From an uncultured Pelagibacteraceae bacterium (GTDB lineage Bacteria; Pseudomonadota; Alphaproteobacteria; Pelagibacterales; Pelagibacteraceae), in the NCBI GenBank assembly GCA_902578525.1, contig CACHDJ010000006.1, positions 1-48,183 of the forward strand: a DNA stretch of 48,183 nt, read 5' to 3'. The notes beneath the pieces were generated by a model that worked only from the letters and a program-made list of their open reading frames with translations, was not told the origin of the DNA and ran no database searches. How positions within the stretch are numbered: the first letter of the stretch is position 1; each line of letters begins with the position of its first letter. Below, one piece after another: positions 1-45,302 of the stretch. Both the position numbers and the translations under genes were made by a program.

Positions 1-1
1 T

Positions 2-337
2 CCATTGATGTTTTCAACTCTAGTTTTGATTTTTTTCGATAATCCTTTAACCTCATTTGTATTTTTAGGTTTAATTGGTGTATCTAATGGCCTAGCCAAT
101 GTTTTAGGGTCTTCTACTTGGGCAGAAATTTATGGAGTAAAACATATTGGATCTATTAAAGCTTTAACAACAGCTTTAATGGTATTTTCGACTGCTTTTG
201 GTACTGCTTTATTTGGCCTTTTGATAGATAATGGATATTCCATTGAGCAAATTGCATTAGTATCTTTTGTGTATATCTTTGCGTCTATTATCCTTCTATT
301 TTTTGTAAGAAATAAGCTTAATCCAAAATATATATAA
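2..337 (+). CDS. MFS transporter, C-terminal part (cut by window edge)
   Basis: Open reading frame that enters from the left edge, so only about the last 111 residues are present. It shows three hydrophobic segments (about residues 3-28, 47-72 and 80-100 of the visible part), a small-residue-rich loop with SNGLANVLGSSTWAEIYG, and a basic tail RNKLNPKYI. This arrangement of alternating helices with GLLIDNGYS between the last two is typical of the C-terminal helices of Major Facilitator Superfamily carriers. The substrate cannot be judged from this fragment. It is truncated by the window edge, not by a mutation. It lies 43 nt upstream of rpoZ on the same strand. Confidence 0.6.
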   Translation, partial: PLMFSTLVLIFFDNPLTSFVFLGLIGVSNGLANVLGSSTWAEIYGVKHIGSIKALTTALMVFSTAFGTALFGLLIDNGYSIEQIALVSFVYIFASIILLFFVRNKLNPKYI

Positions 338-345
338 AAATCTCC

Positions 346-372
346 TTGATTTTTTAAATGTCACTGTATAGA
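346..372 (+). promoter_or_regulatory. Possible rpoZ promoter
   Basis: A TTGATT box at 346-351 and TATAGA at 367-372 are separated by only 15 nt, shorter than the usual 16-18. The -10 lies 8 nt before the rpoZ ATG, so a transcript from here would be nearly leaderless. No Shine-Dalgarno motif is visible before rpoZ, which fits a leaderless start. Tentative. Confidence 0.3.
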
Positions 373-380
373 TACTGCGC

Positions 381-902
381 ATGGCAAGAGTTACTGTAGA
401 AGATTGTATTGATAAAGTTGATAGTCCATATGAATTAGTTTTGGTAGCAAAAGAAAGAGCAACTCAACTTAATTCAGGAATTGAACCCACAATAGAAAGA
501 GACAACGATAAAAATACAGTTATAGCTTTAAGAGAAATAGCTGAAGAAAATATTAAAGTTCCAGAACTAACTGAAAGCGCAGTTTACAAATTAAGAAAAC
601 ACGTAGAACAAGTTGATGACGGATCAGAGGAGGATGAAGATATAGGTGATGAATTTGAAAGTTTATACAAAGGTGAGATTTCAAAAAGTGGAGCACCTAT
701 TTTGCCATCTAAAAGAGCTAGAAAATCACCAGAAAAAATTCAAGTTTCAAAAGAGGATTTAGCTGAATTATCTGAAACAGCCAAACCAGATGTAAATTCA
801 TCTGACAATGAAGAAGTAACTAACGAAAATAACGAAGTATCTTTAGAGGAAGTTTCAGATAACGAAGAACAAGCTCAAGAAGATACTCAAGAAGATCAAT
901 AA
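381..902 (+). CDS. rpoZ: DNA-directed RNA polymerase omega subunit with long acidic tail
   Basis: Omega is the small RNA polymerase subunit that chaperones beta-prime and, with it, can form a ppGpp site. The first 60 residues match the RpoZ family: [20 protein letters not shown], then a basic [11 protein letters not shown] stretch and the conserved [12 protein letters not shown] helix. The protein is 173 aa, clearly longer than the E. coli subunit (about 91 aa). From about residue 78 there is a long Glu/Asp/Ser/Asn-rich tail, with one basic patch near residues 110-116 (KRARKSP). The tail looks disordered. It is convergent with the CoA-transferase gene, leaving only 4 nt between the stop codons. 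Family assignment is secure; the role of the tail is unknown. Confidence 0.93.
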
Positions 903-906
903 TTTT

Positions 907-2052
907 TTAATCAACAAATTCCTTTATAATTTTTTCTCTATGCTCATCTAAGTCGGGGATGTCACCTCTCTTGTTGGGATCTTTGTATGTGGACATTTTA
1001 ATAGGATTACCAGCTAATTTAAAATCTCCTATTACTTTGTGATAAGCTTTGACAATCATATTTCTTGCTTCAATTTGAGGGTTTTCAACAGCTTCTTTAA
1101 TGTTGAATATAGGACCACAAGGTATTTTATCTTTTTCCATTTGAGCTACCCATTCACTAGTAGATTTAGCTGAAAGCTTATCTTCTAGCAGAAATTTAAG
1201 TTCATCCATATTTTTTGATCTTGCAGAATTTGAATTAAATTTTTTATCTTTAAAAATTTCAGAAATTTCGAGAATGTTACAAAGTTTTTCAAATAATTTA
1301 TCATTACCAGCTGCAATAATTATATAGCTATCTTTAGTTTTAAAAGCTTCAAATGGAGCAATAGACGGATGTCTTGATCCCATAGGTTTTGGTATTTCGT
1401 TCTTAGATAAATATCTTGCAATTGCATTTTCAAGTATTGCAATTTGACAATCGAGCATTGAAACATCTATATATGTACCTTTCCCAGTTTTTTGCCTATC
1501 ATATAAAGCTGCATTAATACCTATTGTAGTAAATAGACCGGCGGTAATATCACCAATCGAAGTTCCAACCCTTGTAGGCTCTGAGTTAGGTTGACCAGTT
1601 ACACTCATTAATCCACCCATACCTTGTACAACCATGTCATATGCTGGTAGTTCTTTTAAAGGACCAGTTTGTCCAAAGCCTGATGCTGAAGCATAAATTA
1701 ATTTAGGAAACTTTTTATTAACTTCCTCCCAACCATAACCCCATTTTTTTAGAGTGCCGGGTTTAAAATTTTCAACTAAAATATCAGCTTTAGATAAAAT
1801 TTTATCAAATATTTTTTTATCATTTAAATCTTTTAAATTTAAAGCTATACTTTCCTTTCCTCTATTAAGAGACATAAAATAAGCAGAATATTCTTCGACA
1901 AAGGGACCAAATTTTCTTGAGTCATCTCCAATTTCAGGGGCCTCAACTTTAATTACTCTCGCACCAAGGTCTGATAAAATCATTGTGCAGTATGGACCTA
2001 CTAATACTCTTGTTAAATCAACGACTAATAAGTTTTTAAGTGGTCCATCCAT
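907..2052 (-). CDS. Class III CoA-transferase (CaiB/BaiF family)
   Basis: Enzymes of this family move CoA between carboxylic acids (formyl-CoA/oxalate, carnitine, mesaconate and others). The family hallmarks are present: an N-terminal VVDLTRVLVGPYCTMILSDL, IKVEAPEIGD around residues 35-43, NRGKESIALNL near residue 63, and SASGFGQTGP near 122. Asp168 in GTSIGDITAGL aligns with the catalytic Asp of formyl-CoA transferase (GDSNTG in that enzyme). At 381 aa it has the usual subunit length. It starts back to back with dctP across a 99-nt gap. A reasonable inference is that it activates the acid brought in by the TRAP transporter, but the sequence does not name the substrate. Confidence 0.88.
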   Translation of the reverse strand: MDGPLKNLLVVDLTRVLVGPYCTMILSDLGARVIKVEAPEIGDDSRKFGPFVEEYSAYFMSLNRGKESIALNLKDLNDKKIFDKILSKADILVENFKPGTLKKWGYGWEEVNKKFPKLIYASASGFGQTGPLKELPAYDMVVQGMGGLMSVTGQPNSEPTRVGTSIGDITAGLFTTIGINAALYDRQKTGKGTYIDVSMLDCQIAILENAIARYLSKNEIPKPMGSRHPSIAPFEAFKTKDSYIIIAAGNDKLFEKLCNILEISEIFKDKKFNSNSARSKNMDELKFLLEDKLSAKSTSEWVAQMEKDKIPCGPIFNIKEAVENPQIEARNMIVKAYHKVIGDFKLAGNPIKMSTYKDPNKRGDIPDLDEHREKIIKEFVD

Positions 2053-2087
2053 AATTTCTTATTAAATTAACTGTATTTTTTGTTATC

Positions 2088-2116
2088 TTGACTCTTAACG
2101 ATATCTTCATTTTAAT
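2088..2116 (+). promoter_or_regulatory. Promoter of the TRAP operon
   Basis: TTGACT at 2088-2093 (5 of 6 to the sigma-70 -35 consensus) and TTTAAT at 2111-2116 (5 of 6 to the -10) are separated by exactly 17 nt. The expected start near 2123 gives a leader of about 29 nt that contains the purine-rich Shine-Dalgarno AGAGGGAG at 2138-2145, 6 nt before the dctP ATG. This is one of the best promoter matches in the window. Confidence 0.55.
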
Positions 2117-2151
2117 ACAACTATCATAAATAACAATAGAGGGAGAATTAA

Positions 2152-3162
2152 ATGTTAAAAAAAATAACTTTATATTTCACTTCATTCGCTCTTGCGTTCA
2201 CCTTAATTGGTTCTGCTTATGCTGTAACTTTAAAAGCAAGTCACCAATGGCCTGGAACACCGAGAGCTGATGGATCTTTTGATCCTCGTCACGAAATGGT
2301 ACAAATCATTGCTGATGAGGTTAAAAAAGCAAATGTTGGAGTAGATATAAGAATCTATCCAGCTAAATCATTATATAAACCTAAGGAACAGTGGAAACCA
2401 ATGACAACCGGTCAATTGGATATTTCTGCCTTCCCATTAGCTTATGCATCTAAATTTCATCCAGAATTTGATGCAACTTTAATGCCAGGAACTGTAAAAA
2501 ATCACGAACATGCATTGAGATTCAATAAAGGTCCAATGATGACCGAGATAAAGAGAATAATTAATGATGCTGGTGTAGTGGTTTTGTCTGATGCATGGTT
2601 AGGAGGTGGTTTTGCTTCAAAAACAAAATGTATAAAAAATCCTAGCGACGCTAAAGGCCAAGTTATGAGAGCAGCAGGTAAAGCTTTTAACCAAATGTTA
2701 GAAGCAGCAGGAGCTGGTATTCAAAGCATGCCATCATCTGAAATTTACACTGGATTACAAACTGGAGTATTAACAGGTGCAAATACGAGTTCAGGTAGTT
2801 TTGTGAGTTACAAAATTTATGAACAAGTGTCATGTGCTACACCTCCAGGAAAATTTGGATTATGGTTTATGTATGAGCCAATTCTTATGTCAAAAAAGTC
2901 TTTTGATGCTTTAAATTCTAAGCAACAAAAAGCTTTAATGGCCGCTGGTAAAGTTGCTGAAAAATATATGACAGCACAGGTAGAAAACTTGGACAAAAAG
3001 TTCGAAGATGCCTATAAGGCAGCTGGTGTTAAGTTAGTATACATGGATGCAAAGGATCATGCAGCTTGGGTAGAAATAGCCAAGAAGTCTTCACATAAGG
3101 CATTTGCAGAAAAAGTGCCAGGTGGTGATAAGCTTATGGAAATGGCTTTAGCAGTTAAATAA
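2152..3162 (+). CDS. dctP: TRAP transporter solute-binding protein (DctP family)
   Basis: Periplasmic receptor of a TRAP uptake system. Residues 1-24 form a signal peptide (basic MLKK, hydrophobic core, SAYA cleavage region). The mature protein starts TLKASHQWPG and shows DctP features: the QLDISAFPLAY region, and VMRAAGKAFNQMLEAAGA near residue 175, in which the Arg is the expected carboxylate-binding residue. This is followed by SEIYTGLQTGVLTGAN. Length 336 aa is normal. The clear ribosome-binding site and strong promoter suggest high expression. It is separated from the membrane subunits by a terminator-like hairpin. The presence of the conserved Arg suggests a carboxylate or similar organic acid, but the ligand is not determined. 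Confidence 0.93.
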   Translation: MLKKITLYFTSFALAFTLIGSAYAVTLKASHQWPGTPRADGSFDPRHEMVQIIADEVKKANVGVDIRIYPAKSLYKPKEQWKPMTTGQLDISAFPLAYASKFHPEFDATLMPGTVKNHEHALRFNKGPMMTEIKRIINDAGVVVLSDAWLGGGFASKTKCIKNPSDAKGQVMRAAGKAFNQMLEAAGAGIQSMPSSEIYTGLQTGVLTGANTSSGSFVSYKIYEQVSCATPPGKFGLWFMYEPILMSKKSFDALNSKQQKALMAAGKVAEKYMTAQVENLDKKFEDAYKAAGVKLVYMDAKDHAAWVEIAKKSSHKAFAEKVPGGDKLMEMALAVK

Positions 3163-3176
3163 AATAATATATAAAG

Positions 3177-3214
3177 AACCCCTATTTAATTTTCATTAAG
3201 TAGGGGTTTTTTTT
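3177..3214 (+). terminator. Terminator-like hairpin between dctP and dctQ
   Basis: A 13-bp stem (3177-3189 with 3196-3208, one G-T pair) closes a 6-nt loop and is followed by a T-tract that ends at 3214, directly before the dctQ ATG at 3215. The GC-rich half is AACCCCTA/TAGGGGTT. The only Shine-Dalgarno-like bases for dctQ (AGGGG, 3202-3206) lie in the 3' arm. Partial termination here would make more binding protein than permease, and the stem may also hide the dctQ ribosome-binding site. Confidence 0.8.
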
Positions 3215-3709
3215 ATGAAAAATTTATATTTAAAATTATGTGACTATATAGCGAGAGCTTGTGGTGCATTTGCTGTTTCTGCTTTGCTTTTATCTATTTT
3301 AGTAATTGTTGAGCTGGTATTTGAAAGATATTTTTTTCAAAGAGCGATTACCTGGCAAACTGAATTAGTTACAATGCTTTTGGTTGCATCTACTTTTATT
3401 GGAAGTGCATATGTATTAAGTGAAAAGGCTCATGTAAGCATGGAATGGGTTTATGATTTTTTATCAAAAAAGAATGTTATTAGATTAAAAATTTTTACCT
3501 CTTTTTTAAGTTTACTTTTTTTTCTAATTTTATTTTATTTTGGATTTTTGATGGTGGAAGAGGCGTTTACAAAAAACTATTCTACAGGAACTGTGTGGGA
3601 TCCACCATTATGGATACCATATTCGTCTATGATGTTGGGAGCTGTATTAATGATTTTACAGTATATAGCGGAAATTATTAAGCTTAATGATGAAAAGGAT
3701 AGCAACTAA
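3215..3709 (+). CDS. dctQ: TRAP transporter small membrane subunit (DctQ family)
   Basis: Four-helix small subunit that partners DctM. The 164 residues contain hydrophobic segments at about 15-36, 47-66, 91-113 and 132-152, the standard DctQ topology. The motifs ITWQTELVTMLLVASTFIGSAY and EKAHVSMEWVYDF match the conserved DctQ core, where W(Q/A)xE and the AH..(M/V) segment recur. The start is the ATG immediately after the hairpin T-tract. The stop codon overlaps the dctM start by 1 nt (TAATG), so the two subunits are translationally coupled. Confidence 0.9.
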   Translation: MKNLYLKLCDYIARACGAFAVSALLLSILVIVELVFERYFFQRAITWQTELVTMLLVASTFIGSAYVLSEKAHVSMEWVYDFLSKKNVIRLKIFTSFLSLLFFLILFYFGFLMVEEAFTKNYSTGTVWDPPLWIPYSSMMLGAVLMILQYIAEIIKLNDEKDSN

Positions 3710-5040
3710 TGGACCCGCTAATAATAGCATTAATAGTTGCAATTTTTACTTTGATTGTCCTTTTTTCAGGAATTCCTATTGCTTTTGGCTTAAGTTTTGT
3801 TTCCATAGCTCTTTTAGTAGCATTTGAGGGTTTTCAAATGTTAGATGTTTTTGCAGAAACATTTTATGCAGGACTAAATTCTTTCGTCTTACTTTCAATA
3901 CCAATGTTTATATTAATGGGAATGGCTGTAGCAAATTCTCCAGCTGGAAAAGATTTATATACTGGCTTGGATAGATGGCTTTGGAGACTTCCAGGAGGAT
4001 TAGTAATTTCCAACATAGGTGCTTGTTCAATATTTGCTGCTTTAAGTGGATCTAGCCCTGCAACTTGTGCTGCAATTGGAACTATGGGAATTCCAGAGAT
4101 GAGAAAAAGAGGTTATTCTGATCAAATTGCTACTGGTACTATAGCGGCTGGGGGAACTCTAGGAGTTTTAATTCCTCCAAGTATAGTTTTAATAGTCTAT
4201 GGAATTGCAACGGGTACATCTATTGGTAGATTATTTTTATGTGGTTTAGTGCCTGGCTTTATGTTAGCAGGAATGTTTGCAATTTGGGCTCTTATACACA
4301 GTTATTTTATCGATAAAGATGCTGCTAAAGCATTAAGGAACAGGACACCTCCAACTTTAAAAGAAAAACTCGAAGTTTTACCAAGAATTCTTCCTTTTTT
4401 AGCAATAATAGCTGGGGTGCTATATGTTTTGTATGGAGGCGTAGCTACTCCTTCAGAGGCGTCAGGTGTAGGAGCATTTTTAGTTTTTGTTTTGATTGCC
4501 GTTGTCTACAAAATTTATCAGCCAAAAAAAATATGGAACATAGTCAAAGTTTCTATGAAAGAAAGTGTAATGATTATGTTTATTATAGCTGCTTCCTATC
4601 TTTTTGCATTTACACTTTCACAACTTTACGTCACTCAGTCCTTAGCTCAAAGCATGGTAGAATTAAGTTCTAATAAATGGGTTGTATTTATTTTAATAAA
4701 TATATTTCTTTTAATAGCTGGTTTCTTTTTACCTCCAGTTGCTGTTATTGTAATGACTTCAGCAATCTTATTGCCAGTTATTACAACATTAGGGTTTGAC
4801 CCTTATTGGTTTGCTATTGTATTTACGATCAACATGGAAATAGGATTAATAACACCACCAGTTGGATTGAATCTTTATATTATTAAAGGAATTACCCCAG
4901 ATGTAAGCTTGTCAGAAATTTTAAAAGGATCTATACCGTTCATGATTATCATGGCTTTGGCTATATTAATTTTATGTATTTTTCCAGAAATAGTGACATG
5001 GCTGCCTGATAAAATAATGGGTAAACCTCTTGGATACTAA
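3709..5040 (+). CDS. dctM: TRAP transporter large permease subunit (DctM family)
   Basis: Ion-coupled transport subunit of the TRAP system. The 443-aa polytopic protein has about 12 hydrophobic segments. Typical DctM signatures are GIPIAFGLSF near residue 21, LLSIPMFILMGMAVANS near 60, the FAALSGSSPATCAAIGTMGIPEM element near 103-125, GGTLGVLIPPSIVLIVYG near 143-160, TPSEASGVGAF near 246, and MEIGLITPPVGLNLYIIKG near 376. Length and motifs are complete. It overlaps dctQ by 1 nt and the downstream dusA by 11 nt, so the transport operon probably reads on into tRNA modification and a further permease. Confidence 0.93.
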   Translation: MDPLIIALIVAIFTLIVLFSGIPIAFGLSFVSIALLVAFEGFQMLDVFAETFYAGLNSFVLLSIPMFILMGMAVANSPAGKDLYTGLDRWLWRLPGGLVISNIGACSIFAALSGSSPATCAAIGTMGIPEMRKRGYSDQIATGTIAAGGTLGVLIPPSIVLIVYGIATGTSIGRLFLCGLVPGFMLAGMFAIWALIHSYFIDKDAAKALRNRTPPTLKEKLEVLPRILPFLAIIAGVLYVLYGGVATPSEASGVGAFLVFVLIAVVYKIYQPKKIWNIVKVSMKESVMIMFIIAASYLFAFTLSQLYVTQSLAQSMVELSSNKWVVFILINIFLLIAGFFLPPVAVIVMTSAILLPVITTLGFDPYWFAIVFTINMEIGLITPPVGLNLYIIKGITPDVSLSEILKGSIPFMIIMALAILILCIFPEIVTWLPDKIMGKPLGY

Positions 5041-6034
5041 AAAAAAAATTAATAGAAAAGTTTCAGTTGCTCCAATGATGGATTGCACTGATAGGCATGA
5101 TCGTTTCTTTTTAAGATTAATGAGCAAAAACGTTATGCTTTATTCTGAAATGGTAGCTACAAAATCAGCAATTCATGGTGATAGAAAAAAAATCTTATCT
5201 TATAGCCCAGAAGAAAAACCTTTAGCTTTACAGGTAGGTGGATCAGATAAAAATGAGTTAGCAGAAGTGGCAAAAATTGCTGAAGATATGGGATATGATG
5301 AAATTAATATTAATTTAGGTTGTCCAAGCAAAAAAGTTCAAAAGAATATGTTTGGTGCATGTTTAATGAAAGAGCCAGATTTAGTAGCTGAATGTATCAA
5401 CTCCATGGTTAATGCTTGTAAAATTCCAGTAACTGCAAAAACTAGAATAGGGTTTGATGACACAGAAGATTTTGACTATCTAAATAATTTTATTCATAAG
5501 ATGCACTATGCGGGGTCAAAAACATTCATTCTACATGCTAGAAAAGCCATGCTTTCCGGTTTGTCTCCAAAACAAAATTTGAATATACCTAAATTAAACT
5601 ACGATATGGTTTATAATATTAAAAAAGAAAACCCAGAATTAGAGATAATCATAAATGGAGGTATAACAAAAGTTGAAGAAATAAATAACCACTTAAAATT
5701 TTGTGATGGGGTAATGATTGGTAGATCAATTTATCAAAATCCTTATTCTTTAATTGAAATTGAAAAAGAGATATACAAAACAACAGAACATCCTTCTCGA
5801 GAACAAGTAGCTGAAAAACTTTTAGAGTATCTAGATAGAGAAGTAAAATTGGGCACCAAAGTAAATCATATAATGAGACATACGGTTGGACTGTATCATG
5901 GTCAAGTAGGTTCAAAAGAATGGAAAAGATATTTGAGCGATAATATGATGGCAAGAGACTCGGATTTTCAAAAAGCAAAATATATTATGAAAATTGTTCA
6001 AAATAATGAAAAAGCTAATCAAGCTACTTCTTAA
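5030..6034 (+). CDS. dusA: tRNA-dihydrouridine synthase A
   Basis: FMN enzyme that reduces uridines in the tRNA D-loop (U20/U20a for DusA). Motifs: SVAPMMDCTDRHDRFFLR at the N-terminus, the YSEMV segment, LQVGG, the INLGCPSKKVQ element with the catalytic Cys of the Dus family, HARKAMLSGLSPKQN (characteristic of the DusA subfamily) and the FMN-phosphate site IINGGI plus DGVMIGRSIYQNP. Length 334 aa is normal. The start is TTG at 5030, inside the last codons of dctM. No earlier ATG exists, and the next Met is already in the conserved VAPMM motif. Confidence 0.92.
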   Translation: MDTKKKINRKVSVAPMMDCTDRHDRFFLRLMSKNVMLYSEMVATKSAIHGDRKKILSYSPEEKPLALQVGGSDKNELAEVAKIAEDMGYDEININLGCPSKKVQKNMFGACLMKEPDLVAECINSMVNACKIPVTAKTRIGFDDTEDFDYLNNFIHKMHYAGSKTFILHARKAMLSGLSPKQNLNIPKLNYDMVYNIKKENPELEIIINGGITKVEEINNHLKFCDGVMIGRSIYQNPYSLIEIEKEIYKTTEHPSREQVAEKLLEYLDREVKLGTKVNHIMRHTVGLYHGQVGSKEWKRYLSDNMMARDSDFQKAKYIMKIVQNNEKANQATS

Positions 6035-6870
6035 TGGAAATATTAAATTCATCTGAATTAATTAATTTATTAATTGTTTTGGCATCTGCGGCAGCAGTTG
6101 CAGGTTTTATGGCAGGATTATTAGGAGTAGGTGGTGGAATTATAATGGTACCTGCATTGTACTATGCTTTTACTGTTTTAGACTTTGATATCGTTACAAG
6201 AATGCATCTATCTGTTGGAACATCATTAGCAATCATTATACCAACATCAATTATCTCAACTAAAACACACATGGAATATGATGCAGTAGATTTCAAAATG
6301 GTTAAGTCATTCGGTATTTTTATTCTTTTAGGTGTAATTGCAGGAACATTTTTAGCTGTGAGTTTAAAAACACCTGCGTTAGTTTTATTTTTTTCAATAT
6401 TTGCGTTTATTGTAGGATTATTTTTTATTTTTGTAAGAGAAAAACTTATGGAAAATCCAAAAAAAATTTCTGATTTAATAAAAAATATTTCTGGAATAAT
6501 AATTGGTTTTATTTCAGTACCACTTGGAATTGGTGGTGGTTCTTTGATGGTTCCTTTCATGAGAACATTTGGTTATGATATAAGAAAGTCTATTGGTACT
6601 GCTGCTGCTGTTGGTTTTTTGATAGCCATAAGTGGAACGATCACTATGATAGTTGGCGGTAAGATAGTAGACAACATTAATACACCATTTAGTATTGGGT
6701 ACGTTAATTTATTAGGTTTTATAGTATTTGTTCCTGTGACGATGATTATGGCAAGGATTGGTGCTAAAGCGGTTTATAAAATAAATAAAAGATTATTAAG
6801 CAAAATTTTTGGAACATTTTTAATTATTGTTTCTATTAGGTCATTTATTGAATACTTATCTATAAGTTAG
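6034..6870 (+). CDS. TauE/SafE family membrane permease
   Basis: Putative exporter or importer of small sulfur or organic anions. The 278-aa protein has about eight membrane helices and two pseudo-repeats, each starting with a Gly-rich loop: GLLGVGGGIIMVPALYY near residue 28 and VPLGIGGGSLMVPFMRTFG near residue 160. This internal duplication defines the TauE/SafE (formerly DUF81) family. The ATG overlaps the dusA stop by 1 nt. Known members move sulfite, sulfoacetate or other anions. Nothing in this sequence fixes the substrate or the direction. Confidence 0.85.
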   Translation: MEILNSSELINLLIVLASAAAVAGFMAGLLGVGGGIIMVPALYYAFTVLDFDIVTRMHLSVGTSLAIIIPTSIISTKTHMEYDAVDFKMVKSFGIFILLGVIAGTFLAVSLKTPALVLFFSIFAFIVGLFFIFVREKLMENPKKISDLIKNISGIIIGFISVPLGIGGGSLMVPFMRTFGYDIRKSIGTAAAVGFLIAISGTITMIVGGKIVDNINTPFSIGYVNLLGFIVFVPVTMIMARIGAKAVYKINKRLLSKIFGTFLIIVSIRSFIEYLSIS

Positions 6871-6884
6871 AAAACTAAATAATT

Positions 6885-7085
6885 TTAATCAGTTCCCCAC
6901 TTTACTTTGTTCCAAATTCTCTCATGAAAATAGTAAAAAAACAGTGGAATAATTGAACCAAAACCAAGTATTCCTGCACCTATAAAGGTGCCAGTATAAA
7001 TATAACCAAAAATAACCCAATATACAAAAATGAAAAATCTCCATGAAAAAGTTTTGGCAACGGATCTAATTTTTTTGTCTGCCAT
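6885..7085 (-). CDS. DUF2061 small membrane protein
   Basis: 66-aa protein with one long hydrophobic region (about residues 15-50, probably two short helices) between a basic N-terminus (MADKKIRSVAKTFSWRF) and the C-terminal YYFHERIWNKVKWG. The SVAKTFSWR...F start and the YxHERxW end are the signature of DUF2061, a small family of unknown function found in many marine bacteria. It is convergent with the TauE/SafE gene. On the minus strand an 8-bp hairpin and eight T residues sit directly before its ATG, so its expression is probably conditional. Confidence 0.8.
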   Translation of the reverse strand: MADKKIRSVAKTFSWRFFIFVYWVIFGYIYTGTFIGAGILGFGSIIPLFFYYFHERIWNKVKWGTD

Positions 7086-7125
7086 AAAAAAAAAGGAGGT
7101 GATTTCAGTCTCCCTCCATCACCTC
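7086..7125 (-). terminator. Terminator/attenuator-like hairpin in front of the DUF2061 gene
   Basis: Read on the minus strand, GAGGTGAT (7125-7118) and ATCACCTC (7103-7096) form a perfect 8-bp stem around a 14-nt purine-rich loop. One C and then a run of eight or more T residues follow, and the run ends at the ATG of the gene at 7085. A stem followed by a U-tract is an intrinsic terminator layout. Its position suggests either attenuation of the gene or the end of a short upstream transcript. A TATAAA box lies at 7134-7129 on the same strand. Confidence 0.55.
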
Positions 7126-7357
7126 ACATTTATAATTTTAATTGATTCTTTAAAATTTTATGAACACTTATTAGTTGAAAATAAAGATTACTTTAAAAAG
7201 TTTTAATAATAAGAATTTTTAAATTAAAAAAAAATATTACACGTATAGATTGTATTTATATGAATATATTGAATTTTACTGAATTTATTAATTACAGAAA
7301 TTTAATTTGAACACATCTATTTATTTAAAATATCTCAAAATTTGTTAGCTTTTACCT
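7126..7357. other. AT-rich intergenic region without a recognised gene
   Basis: About 230 nt of very AT-rich DNA between the divergent DUF2061 and coiled-coil genes. I see no conserved ORF, tRNA or known riboswitch core. For the rightward gene a weak pair TTGAAC (7307-7312) and TATCTC (7331-7336) is possible. A GTG-initiated frame at 7099 runs 36 codons but has no plausible ribosome-binding site or codon pattern. Nothing here is called with confidence. Confidence 0.4.
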
Positions 7358-8503
7358 ATGAGCTCAAAAAAAAGAGCAAAGATAAAAAATACGAGTTTGA
7401 AAAATATTCAATCTCTAATTCCAAAAAATTTTAGTATAGAAAAAATTAAAATAAATCCTTTAGGCGTCATAGAAAAGACAAAAAATAAAATTGGAAATTT
7501 TTATAGCAATATTCAAAAAGAAAGAGAAAAAGAAAAAAAGAGATTAGATAAAAAAAGAAAATCGGATGAAAAAAAGGAATTACAAAATCAAAGAAAACAA
7601 GCACAAAAAGAAAGATTAGACAAAATCAAGGAAGAAAAACGTCAAATTTTAGCACAAAAAAAATTAATAATTTTTAATGAAAAACAAAATAGAAAAAATG
7701 AGGAAAGAAGAAAAAAAATTGAGGAAAAAAGAATTAAAATTGAACAACAAAAAATTAAAGATGAGGAAACTAGAAAAATAAGAGAGGATGCTATAGCACT
7801 TAAACACGAAGAACTTAGATTAAAGATGCTCGAAAGGCAAAAAATTCGTGAAGCAAAGATTAAAGAAAAAGAAGAGGCTCTTAAAGAAAAAGAAATCAAA
7901 GCTCAAAGAATAAGAGAGGAAAAAGAGAAGGAAAGACAAGAATTAATCAGGTTAAAAGATATAGAAAGACAAAAAAGATTAGATGAAGAACAAAAGATTA
8001 GAGAAGCAGCTAGAAAACTTAAATATGAGGAAGAAAAATTAAGAGAAACTGAAAATAGATTAAAACAATTAGAAATAGATAGACATCAAGAAATCCAAAG
8101 ACAACTTCTTAATGAACAAGCAGAACAAAGACAAAAAGAGGAAGAACTGAGATTAAAAGAGGAAAAATTAAAAGCTATTGAAAAAGAAAAAATAGCAATA
8201 GAAAAAGAAGAGAGGGAAAAAGCAGAGGAGTTAAGAATAGAGGAAGAAAAACAAAAAAGATTTGAAGAGGAAAAACAAATTGCTATTAAACAAAAAAGAG
8301 AGGAAGAAGAGAGAATTGAGGAAGAGAACCGCAGAATTAAAGAATGGGAAGATAAATTTGATCAAGAACAGAAAATAAAAGAGGAAGCTTTAATTAAAAA
8401 ATTTTATTCTGATCAACAATCTAGCCAAAATAATGATGAAATTAGTAATAATTCTGACCCAAATTTTGATAATGTGGAAAATGAAGAGAATAAGAATAAC
8501 TAA
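7358..8503 (+). CDS. Hypothetical Lys/Glu/Arg-rich coiled-coil protein
   Basis: I do not recognise a family. The 381-aa protein has a basic N-terminal segment (about residues 1-55), then about 290 residues of almost uninterrupted charged helix (residues 50-345) rich in K, E, R, Q, I and L. This is the pattern of a long coiled coil or single alpha-helix, with repeats such as IREE, RLKEE and KIRE. It ends with a short acidic, Asn/Ser-rich tail. No signal peptide or membrane segment is visible. It ends one base before the convergent phosphomannomutase stop. Similarity searches will give many spurious coiled-coil hits, so composition-corrected comparison is needed. The uninterrupted frame with a start codon and low stop density supports a real gene. 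Confidence 0.7.
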   Translation: MSSKKRAKIKNTSLKNIQSLIPKNFSIEKIKINPLGVIEKTKNKIGNFYSNIQKEREKEKKRLDKKRKSDEKKELQNQRKQAQKERLDKIKEEKRQILAQKKLIIFNEKQNRKNEERRKKIEEKRIKIEQQKIKDEETRKIREDAIALKHEELRLKMLERQKIREAKIKEKEEALKEKEIKAQRIREEKEKERQELIRLKDIERQKRLDEEQKIREAARKLKYEEEKLRETENRLKQLEIDRHQEIQRQLLNEQAEQRQKEEELRLKEEKLKAIEKEKIAIEKEEREKAEELRIEEEKQKRFEEEKQIAIKQKREEEERIEEENRRIKEWEDKFDQEQKIKEEALIKKFYSDQQSSQNNDEISNNSDPNFDNVENEENKNN

Positions 8504-42664: not shown

Positions 42665-43993
42665 ATGATTAAAAAAATCATAATCAATATATCTGTGTTA
42701 GTATTTTTAATTTCTAATACTAGTTTTGCAGATATAAAATTTTGGACTACAGAAGTCCAACCAGCAAGAATGGCAAAACAAGAGGAAATGGCAAAAGCTT
42801 TTGAAGCAAAAACAGGTATCGGAGTTGAGGTCATACCAATTGAAGAAAAAGATCTTGGAACAAGAGCTACTGCGGCAGCAGCAGCGGGAGATCTACCAGA
42901 TGTGATTTATCACACTCTACAATATGTTTTACCATGGGCTGAAGCAGGCATATTAGATGTTGACGCAAATAATGCCGTAGTAAAATCGTTAGGAAAAAAA
43001 ACATTTGCACCTGGAGCATTGAACATGGCTAAGAAAGGTTCAAAAATTGCAGCTGTTCCTGTTGATGGATGGACACAAATGGTCGTTTATAGAAAAGATC
43101 TATTTGAAAAAGCTGGTTTAGAACCACCAACTACATATGCAAACATAGTTAAAGCAGTTAATACACTATCAAGTAGTGATATGTTTGGTTTTGTAGCAGC
43201 TACTAAAACAGATGAAAATTTTATGAGCCAAGTACTTGAACACGTACTTTTAGCTAATGGAGTTAATTTCGTTAAAAAGGGTGGAACTAAAAAGCAAGGT
43301 AAAGCTTTAAAAAATTCTTTAGAATTTTACAAAGTAATTGCTAAAGCAAGTCCTCCAGGAGAATTATTCTGGAAACAATCTAGAGCTCTATACTTTGCTG
43401 GTAAGACACCAATGATTATTTGGTCTCCATTTATTATGGATGAGCTAGCAGGATTAAGAGACTCCGCTCCTCCAACTATAAATAGTGATCCAACATCCCC
43501 TGAGTTAGCTTCTAAAACTGGTTTCATTACTAATTTTAGTGGACCTAACAACAAGAAGGGTGCTGCTTGGGCTGATGTAAGATACTTTGGTATCACTGCG
43601 GATGCAGACACTGATGAAGCTAAAAAATTCATAGAGTATTCTATGAGTGAGGGTTATACAGCAACATTAGGAATAGCTCCGGAAGGAAAATTTCCAGTAA
43701 GAAGAGGAAACAAGAGTGATCCTAGTGCTTACACTAAAGCTTGGAGTAAATTACCAGTAGGTGTTGATAGAAAAGCACCTTTAACTGATCTTTATTCAGC
43801 AGATGTTATTGATAATATCGTTGCGGGTTTAGATACTGCAAACAGATGGGGTGTTAAAGAGGGCGAACTATCTCGAGCATCAAAAATCATTAATTCTCAA
43901 TTCTTAAACAGAATCACTAGAGAATATATTGATGATCAAATCTCAGTTGATGAAGCAGTTAAGAAAATTAACGCTGAATTAGCTAAGTTTTAA
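42665..43993 (+). CDS. ABC transporter solute-binding protein, carbohydrate family 1
   Basis: Periplasmic receptor of the sugar ABC importer. Residues 1-22 are a signal peptide (MIKKIIINISVLVFLISNTSFA), and the mature chain begins DIKFWTTEVQ. Family-1 binding-protein features: AFEAKTGIGVEVIPIEEKDLGTR, AAAAGDLPDVIYHTLQYVLPWAEAG near 75-98, and AVPVDGWTQMVVYRKDLFEKAGLEPPTTY near residue 125-153. Length 442 aa is normal. The aromatic and acidic residues in these stretches suit a sugar or polyol ligand. By context it should bind a glucosylated solute, by inference only. Followed by a terminator-like hairpin before the permeases. Confidence 0.9.
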   Translation: MIKKIIINISVLVFLISNTSFADIKFWTTEVQPARMAKQEEMAKAFEAKTGIGVEVIPIEEKDLGTRATAAAAAGDLPDVIYHTLQYVLPWAEAGILDVDANNAVVKSLGKKTFAPGALNMAKKGSKIAAVPVDGWTQMVVYRKDLFEKAGLEPPTTYANIVKAVNTLSSSDMFGFVAATKTDENFMSQVLEHVLLANGVNFVKKGGTKKQGKALKNSLEFYKVIAKASPPGELFWKQSRALYFAGKTPMIIWSPFIMDELAGLRDSAPPTINSDPTSPELASKTGFITNFSGPNNKKGAAWADVRYFGITADADTDEAKKFIEYSMSEGYTATLGIAPEGKFPVRRGNKSDPSAYTKAWSKLPVGVDRKAPLTDLYSADVIDNIVAGLDTANRWGVKEGELSRASKIINSQFLNRITREYIDDQISVDEAVKKINAELAKF

Positions 43994-44007
43994 ATAATAA
44001 ATTTATA

Positions 44008-44040
44008 AAGAGCGGATAATATTTTATTATCCGCTTTTTA
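44008..44040 (+). terminator. Terminator-like hairpin between binding protein and permeases
   Basis: Perfect 10-bp stem AGCGGATAAT (44011-44020) with ATTATCCGCT (44026-44035), extended by A-T and G-T pairs to 44008/44038, with a 5-nt loop and a T-tract up to 44039. The permease ATG begins at 44043, 2 nt after the tract. A partial terminator here would keep binding protein in excess over permease. Confidence 0.78.
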
Positions 44041-44042
44041 TT

Positions 44043-45302
44043 ATGAGTGATTCATTATCAAAATTAGAAAAAAGAACTGCCTACACTTTAGTTTTACCAG
44101 CAGTCTTACTAGTATTTGCAATTGTATTATTTCCAATATTTGCAAATGTTTGGATAAGTTTTAAAGATATTGAATTAAAAGATATTAGAATTCCAGAACC
44201 CAGAGCTAAAAAAATTGTAAAATCAATTTCAGAAAAACAATCGGAATTAAAAATTGTTTATAAATTACGAAACAGCTCATTAATCCAAGAAATTAGAAAT
44301 GTTCAGTTTCAAGATAAATTTCCAAAAGATATTTCACCAATCAATCTAGATCCAAGATGCAACTTTCAATCTAAAAAGGTGATTTGTAATTTTGGAAATT
44401 GGGAAGCAAAATATAGAGAAAATTTTGAGATAAATATAAAGCATAATAATGGAGAAAAAATTGATAAAAAAATAATTAAATCACAAAAACCAATTTTAAG
44501 TGGAAAAGCAGACAATCCACTACTAACTACAAATTTTACTTTAGAAAATTTTAAAAAAGTTTTTTATGAAAATAATTTTGTTGAATTGCTTTTAACTACA
44601 TTTTATTTCACTTTTTTTGGCACTGTAGGAGCAATAATTTTTGGAATTTTAGCAGCTCAATTAGTTAATCAAAATATTCAAGGTCGAACTTATATGCGAG
44701 GTATTTTACTTTTTCCTTATGTGGGTCCTGTGGTTGCTTTAGCTTATACATGGACTTTATTACTAGATCCTAATAGCGGAACTTTAAACGCATTATTAGT
44801 TAATTTTAATATTATAGAGACCCCAATAAATTTATTAGGCCAAAAATATATAACAATGAGTATTTTAGGTTTTGAATTTAAATTAAGGCTGGCTTTAACT
44901 ACAGTAATATTTTTTGAAATTTGGCGTTATTTTCCACTCGCTTTTCTTTTTATTTTAGCAAGATTACAAGCAATTCCACAAACTTTGTATGAAGCAGCTG
45001 ATGTGGATGGTGCAAGCCCAATCCAAAAATTTATTCATATCACACTACCACAAATTACAGCAATCATCTCAATCTTATTTATGATTAGGTTTATTTGGAA
45101 CTTTAATAAATTTGAGGATATCTTTTTATTAACGGGTGGAGCGTCAGGTACAAGAACGTTACCTATTAATGTTTATCAACAAGGCTTTGCGGTATCAGAT
45201 ATTGGGATGGGCTCTGCTGTTTCAATAGTAATTGTAATGTTACTTCTTAGTTTCATGGTTATTTATTTTAGATTAATTGGAAAGAGAGCAAATGAAGTTT
45301 AA
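44043..45302 (+). CDS. ABC transporter permease (MalF type) with periplasmic insertion
   Basis: First membrane subunit of the sugar importer. Helix 1 spans about residues 14-39. Residues about 41-165 are an extra hydrophilic domain, and the transmembrane core resumes at about 181. The EAA loop, EAADVDGASPIQKFIHITLPQ, lies at about 317-337. 419 aa is long for this family (about 290-330), and the excess is the insertion. It is rich in Lys and beta-prone, with two nearby cysteines (106 and 115) that could form a disulfide in the periplasm. The start is the ATG just behind the hairpin. It overlaps the next permease by 11 nt. Confidence 0.9.
   Translation: MSDSLSKLEKRTAYTLVLPAVLLVFAIVLFPIFANVWISFKDIELKDIRIPEPRAKKIVKSISEKQSELKIVYKLRNSSLIQEIRNVQFQDKFPKDISPINLDPRCNFQSKKVICNFGNWEAKYRENFEINIKHNNGEKIDKKIIKSQKPILSGKADNPLLTTNFTLENFKKVFYENNFVELLLTTFYFTFFGTVGAIIFGILAAQLVNQNIQGRTYMRGILLFPYVGPVVALAYTWTLLLDPNSGTLNALLVNFNIIETPINLLGQKYITMSILGFEFKLRLALTTVIFFEIWRYFPLAFLFILARLQAIPQTLYEAADVDGASPIQKFIHITLPQITAIISILFMIRFIWNFNKFEDIFLLTGGASGTRTLPINVYQQGFAVSDIGMGSAVSIVIVMLLLSFMVIYFRLIGKRANEV

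Follow-up and report, generated by a model that had tools for sequence, protein, structure and literature searches.

The gap between the TRAP transporter genes dctP and dctQ of this SAR11 genome holds a stem-loop, followed directly by a U-tract and then by the dctQ start codon. The most probable reading, to which we give roughly two chances in three, is that a leaky intrinsic terminator, joined to the start region of dctQ, reduces dctQM output compared with that of dctP and so determines the balance between binding protein and permease. It is supported by the order of the elements (hairpin, then U8, then ATG) and by the hairpin being kept in 89 of 89 distinct orthologous gaps. The rule is also wider than dctP-dctQ, as gap hairpins in this genome are largely confined to junctions behind genes of solute-binding proteins (SBP).

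The window, which means the whole stretch of 48,183 nt that was analysed, belongs to a SAR11 genome of 1,007,830 bases (G000, called the own genome below), and its named relatives belong to the Pelagibacteraceae and Pelagibacterales. The features under discussion are the following.

2152..3162, + strand: dctP, TRAP solute-binding protein, 336 aa (PF03480, E 3.9e-40; NCBIfam TRAP_S1)
3160-3162, + strand: dctP stop codon TAA (sequence)
3163..3176, + strand: spacer from the dctP stop to the stem, containing TATATAAAG at 3168-3176, with AAAG able to pair with the U-tract
3177..3208, + strand: stem-loop, 3177-3190 pairing with 3195-3208, loop 3191-3194 (covariation support)
3202..3206, + strand: AGGGG in the 3' arm of the stem, possible weak Shine-Dalgarno (SD) sequence, 8 nt from the ATG
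3207..3214, + strand: eight T ending at the dctQ start codon (sequence)
3215..3709, + strand: dctQ, TRAP small permease, 164 aa (PF04290, E 3e-26; ORF list)
3709..5040, + strand: dctM, TRAP large permease (PF06808, E 1.2e-92; ORF list)
43994..44042, + strand: second example in the window, a hairpin of 17 bp that stops 1 nt short of an ABC permease ATG (fold, Pfam, occlusion)

The dctP-dctQ gap is 52 nt long and consists of a short AT spacer, the stem-loop and the T-tract. The preliminary description had placed a hairpin with a T-tract here and the ATG right after the last T, and the sequence agrees with it; the stem it named is also present and is strong, but with 14 consecutive pairs and not 13. 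One of these pairs is G-U and four are G-C, and the loop has 4 nt. The first two bases of the tract (T3207-T3208) can pair with A3177-A3178, the stem can be extended by four pairs into the U-tract (3173-3176 with 3209-3212), and beyond one mismatch past this extension the predicted pairing reaches the start codon. The fold of 3160-3234 has an energy of -22.5 kcal/mol (z -5.0), which was equalled by none of 200 dinucleotide shuffles. Upstream of the dctQ ATG (3215-3217) an in-frame TAA occupies 3197-3199, and the interval between the two is free of ATG, GTG and TTG. As dctQ and dctM share one overlapping base, regulation at dctQ probably extends to the large permease subunit, so that dctM would be gated together with dctQ.

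A GC-containing stem with a short loop and a U-tract directly behind it is the make-up of an intrinsic (Rho-independent) terminator, and a stem-loop between the SBP gene and the translocator genes (DctP, DctQ and DctM by Pfam) is that of an internal terminator of SBP operons. The malE type, which is a stable hairpin without U-tract, does not describe the dctP-dctQ element with its U8. A simple terminator scan of positions 1-8000 returned 5 matches (3.5 expected), and the dctP-dctQ hairpin was not among them. The locus does not look like a riboswitch or conditional attenuator, as the gap is only 52 nt, no aptamer or competing antiterminator fold was found and the MFE and centroid folds are the same. 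A known RNA family was rejected, the three Rfam matches within 1900-3800 being all far below the gathering score.

Start occlusion was calculated for 414 sampled genes as the predicted energy to open positions -15 to +5 around the start. With 21.4 kcal/mol dctQ ranked first of the 414 (median 4.7, 90th percentile 8.5), while its neighbours dctP and dctM ranked 44 and 119. The ABC permease at 44043 came second and an SBP_bac_3-linked permease in L229 third, both of them at SBP-to-permease junctions, and the SelO gene came fourth. Ranks 5 to 7, at 14-15 kcal/mol, were L226:17079, L216:18603 and L218:9376. The predicted unpaired probability was 0 for the GGGG of AGGGG and 0.10-0.26 for the dctQ ATG, so that both the SD-like run and the start codon are predicted to be inaccessible, as in hairpins that sequester an SD. 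The modelling supports occlusion of the dctQ start region by the hairpin.

The preliminary description had named AGGGG at 3202-3206 as the only SD-like bases, and it is indeed the sole such run just before the ATG. A weak SD at dctQ is plausible from the sequence: its anti-SD pairing of -6.4 is equalled or bettered by 9.4% of genes, and its G-run lies on or beside a modest maximum in G content between -11 and -8 before the sampled starts. SD use in the own genome is weak. Only 15% of sampled genes have a core SD motif in front of them, and anti-SD duplex energies average -1.5 at starts against -2.0 in an in-gene control, which means that starts are no better, although duplexes as strong as -7 or better occur a little more often there (7.0% of genes against 3.6% in the control). 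The earlier idea that the hairpin hides the ribosome-binding site is matched with dctQ being the hardest predicted start of 414, but a hidden SD is not the general point. As a general reason for these hairpins it was rejected, because SD use is weak and the arms outside DctP junctions are non-SD.

Orthologous gaps were collected from DctQ searches, DctP-family loci and genome stretches. The resulting 178 loci are redundant (the window itself occurs three times, some places twice, and the same genomes are in two collections), so we counted the 89 distinct sequences, all from Pelagibacteraceae and mutually related. DctQ identity across the collected loci is 32-100%, with genus labels g1, g2, g3, g4 and g8, and the distinct gaps are 43-69 nt long. 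The cultured isolate HTCC9565 (L025) is among the carriers of this gap. All 89 fold at z <= -5.3 (100 mononucleotide shuffles each), 66 have a T run of 7-9 at the ATG and 82 have a G-run 7-11 nt from it.

Alignment of the gap in relatives for compensatory changes in the stem had been proposed as a check, and the pairing proved to be conserved, with two-sided changes at 9 of 18 pairs. The alignment comprised 81 of the 89 gaps, four g3 rows (misplaced by MAFFT) and L150-L153 (the most divergent of the rest) being omitted. In its 18-pair helix 90.8% of cells are paired, compared with 44-66% when the helix is slid by 1-3 columns and a mean of 87.0% in 3'-letter shuffles. The 9 pairs with two-sided changes compare with 0-6 in slid controls and a shuffle mean of 4.8, and the 56 cells carrying such changes with 0-26 and 22.9, respectively. 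None of 500 3'-letter shuffles reached the observed values of the paired-cell and two-sided measures; the value for further pair types, the fifth of five covariation measures, was reached in 34 of 500. RNAalifold independently predicts 10 of the helix pairs (columns 15-24 with 39-48), five of them with two-sided changes, and L028 and L030 carry several compensated stem changes at once.

The four gaps of genus g3 keep the long stem, with a U-tract that is short or broken in L154 and L155 and absent in L156 and L157. In L151 and L153 some 30 nt separate the hairpin from the ATG. Judged from these sequences, the stem is conserved most and the U-tract next, and contact with the ATG is common yet not absolute. 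It means that termination is unlikely to be the sole selected function, since g3 keeps the stem with a poor U-tract or none.

The own-genome sample comprised 414 kb (the window and 20 further stretches), in which a home-made scorer called 443 genes with 96% coverage and unverified starts. There were 339 codirectional junctions, from which 5 with tRNA-like sequence were removed. The search for hairpins (8 bp or longer) covered only those gaps that have 20 nt or more. A hairpin was found at 9 of 10 SBP junctions and at 4 of 324 others (Fisher 5.5e-14); restricted to gaps of at least 20 nt, the counts were 9 of 10 and 4 of 95 (2.3e-9). The four non-SBP hairpins follow genes for proteorhodopsin, formate dehydrogenase (before SelO), a GSDH-like protein and a protein without Pfam match (before a proC-like gene). 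L218 carries hairpins both before a proC-like gene and behind a Peripla_BP_6 gene. At L221:3020-3098 a hairpin with a U-tract leads from the proteorhodopsin gene to a ferredoxin-like gene, and the hairpin between formate dehydrogenase and SelO (L230:4842-4892) abuts the next start, being the sole non-SBP case among the four start-abutting hairpins of the sample. The called gap was below 20 nt in 37 of 42 convergent pairs of this sample, which leaves scant space for ordinary terminators.

The second example in the window, at 43994-44042, follows an SBP_bac_1 gene (42665-43993) and precedes the ABC permease start at 44043 (region 42665-45302). It is the same device as the one at dctP-dctQ.

For nine SAR11 genomes we tabulated SBP genes of five Pfam families only, and 119 of 139 family matches were entered. 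Left out were eight DctP matches without locus, four of PF13416 (two long, two below the cut-off), seven weak ones of PF04069 and one truncated one of PF13458. Another 20 of the 119 entries had no next gene on the same strand, which gave 99 SBP junctions. Of these 99, 83 carry a stem no more than 100 nt from the stop codon (0.9% in shuffles), or 84 under a looser hairpin rule, so that 15 junctions are hairpin-free by the looser and 16 by the stricter rule. The median distance of all 83 hairpins to the next start is 16 nt.

Thirty of the 83 hairpins abut the next start (within 8 nt), namely 14 behind DctP, 9 behind SBP_bac_8 and 7 behind SBP_bac_3 genes. A U-rich tract is present in 18 of the 30 (9 DctP, 9 SBP_bac_8, no SBP_bac_3) and missing in 12; among the 53 hairpins that leave more than 8 nt, 43 have a U-rich tail and 10 have none by a stem finder that absorbs T-tracts and may undercount such tails. 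An SD-like run occurs in 13 of the 30 start-abutting hairpins, 12 of 14 at TRAP (DctP) junctions, 1 of 9 at SBP_bac_8 and 0 of 7 at SBP_bac_3 junctions. Since the SD-like arms are mostly from TRAP operons, the feature common to the abutting junctions of all three families is that a stem covers or adjoins the start, and not that an SD is hidden.

One family of SBP_bac_3 junctions from six genomes (L238, L240-L244) has a conserved 40-nt gap and a GTG start and no GC hairpin. This family and the 15-16 hairpin-free junctions of 99 mean that the hairpin is not compulsory, and ratio control at L238 and L240-L244, if any, must differ. Behind OpuAC-type genes (L288-L290, L299, L300, L302) there is a conserved hairpin with a G-rich 3' arm and a T-tract, and the gene after it is a small frame of 125-154 aa with low hydrophobicity.

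Outside SAR11 we used a class sample of 58 genomes of Alphaproteobacteria, of which 36 had a DctP match, own genome included, and compared 30 DctP loci, one each from 30 other genomes, with unverified starts. Of the 30, 17 have a stem no farther than 100 nt from the stop (10% in mononucleotide shuffles); 11 of these stems are inside the gap, and the closest leaves 15 nt before the next start. No stem in that range was found at three low-GC loci of this sample (L357, L359, L360). A general alphaproteobacterial rule was rejected, as stems occur in only 17 of the 30 loci and none abuts the start. As far as this sample goes, fusion to the start thus seems to be a SAR11 form of a familiar type of element.

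For the dctP-dctQ locus we suggest the following course of expression. Transcription would begin upstream of dctP, and the hairpin with its U-tract would halt part of the RNA polymerases, as a leaky intrinsic terminator does. Many messages would then carry dctP only, and the stem may also shield their 3' end. The fraction of RNA that reads through would carry the hairpin folded against the dctQ start codon and the weak SD, and the coupled dctQM pair on it would be poorly translated. One compact structure could thus cut permease output at two steps and would probably keep the membrane protein scarce relative to an abundant binding protein.

The same structure could act mainly on RNA decay. If the whole message were cut by RNase, with a protective 3' hairpin of the malE type shielding dctP RNA while dctQM RNA decays, little termination would be required. 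The U-tract is missing from 12 of 30 abutting and 10 of 53 non-abutting SBP hairpins and from two g3 dctP-dctQ gaps, as expected for such protection, and sections of PMC5927463 describe for E. coli stabilised SBP messages in five ABC operons and hairpins without U-tracts at their stabilised 3' ends. The start-abutting hairpins without U-rich tract, which include all seven of SBP_bac_3, also speak against termination alone. But a protective hairpin requires neither a T-tract nor contact with the start codon, and 7-9 T run up to the ATG in the window gap and in 66 of 89 distinct orthologous gaps, and U-rich tails are found on 43 of the 53 non-abutting SBP hairpins. We consider protection as the main function unlikely. 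It might also be that the unit is a conditional valve rather than a constant control of the ratio, with terminator and start opened at one time by RNA melting (for example by the cold-shock proteins CspE/CspL) or by initiation within the stem; CspE and CspL are proposed as regulators in PMC2864753. Such a valve is distinctly improbable, and if it were true, the ratio of permease to binding protein would shift with nutrient state for many importers at once.

Two explanations give the fused arrangement no role in setting the ratio. A complete terminator followed by a separate dctQM promoter would make two units, the short gap reflecting genome streamlining only. As the dctQ ATG follows the T-tract, such a promoter could only be located inside dctP, in the spacer upstream of the stem, or within the stem itself. 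The TATATAAAG upstream of the stem is nearly invariant in the closest relatives, even where several stem pairs are changed (L028, L030), and RNA starting at 3182-3187 would lower the start opening to 6.9-8.2 kcal/mol, about the upper range of ordinary genes (90th percentile 8.5). On the other side, promoters in window positions 1-8000 show no excess (33 found, 38.8 expected from shuffles), and TATATAAAG is lost in other lineages that retain the hairpin. An internal promoter is weakened by these results, and we give it little weight. Pure compaction would make the hairpin an ordinary, functionally unimportant terminator that stands beside a start since gaps in SAR11 are short, and codirectional gaps in the own-genome sample are short indeed (median 4 nt). 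Compaction does not force contact, as 53 of the 83 SBP hairpins lie more than 8 nt from the next start, and the near confinement of the sampled hairpins to SBP junctions and the retention in all 89 orthologous gaps also tell against it, so that we regard it as very improbable.

A leaky terminator fused to the start of the permease gene would give a simple account of binding-protein and permease output in a genome with very short gaps. The chief interest lies in the way that gap hairpins are so largely restricted to SBP junctions, and in their start-fused subset. A terminator and a start-site lock within about 50 nt make a compact design, which could be tried in synthetic operons. According to passages of PMC8437039, SAR11 cells produce the binding protein PotD abundantly, and excerpts of PMC5069720 list several SBP genes, one dctP among them, with the most-read HTCC7211 genes in seawater. 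Under iron limitation of Ca. P. ubique, transcripts of sfuC (SBP), sfuB (permease) and sfuA (ATPase) rose 16.0, 10.4 and 5.0 fold according to sections of PMC2864753. By analogy, the iron-array and HTCC7211 data fit the ratio-setting view in general, and they do not cover the dctP-dctQ gap.

SD-sequestering translational hairpins are known as a class. Like them, dctQ has its start region and its only SD-like run inside or against a stem; it differs in that no ligand or competing fold was seen, the gap has only 52 nt and no Rfam match lies above gathering. The top-ranked matches of the open-licence literature included no paper on hairpins between SBP and permease genes as a class in SAR11. A stem-loop may exist in dctPQM of Rhodobacter capsulatus, and the literature search found no report of it. 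The word stem-loop is absent from the accessible part of a TRAP review (PMC5812351), and that of PMC5069961 holds nothing further on SBP-permease hairpins.

The terminators behind SBP genes of Ruminiclostridium cellulolyticum and other Clostridia, as far as the abstract and sections 7 and 9 of PMC9045158 describe them, are internal terminators that cut downstream transcripts with an efficiency of 20.7-96.1% in a clostridial reporter. They are alike in having a single stem-loop between SBP and translocator genes and no alternative fold, in the expected lowering of downstream genes and in U-tract pairing with 5' bases. The SAR11 hairpins differ in serving TRAP as well as ABC transporters, in a streamlined alphaproteobacterium, and, as at dctP-dctQ, in a U-tract that ends at the permease start codon, an arrangement undescribed in that abstract and those sections. 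The decay hairpins of malE-malF and pufBALMX, in the sections of PMC5927463 cited above, are also stable hairpins in an SBP-permease gap with SBP in excess; they are without U-tract, gaps with a terminator motif having been excluded by design, whereas dctP-dctQ has U8. The SAR11 hairpins without U-tract resemble these malE-type hairpins more than dctP-dctQ does. Within SAR11, the rhtB element of Ca. P. ubique is a conserved hairpin near rhtB, proC, livM and livK, about half of the copies with U6-9, and the part of PMC2704228 consulted treats it as a motif standing alone, not as a member of a family that follows SBP genes. Both kinds of element, terminators inside operons and protective stems downstream of SBP genes, have been published before; the start-fused form and the SAR11-wide rule look like the new part.
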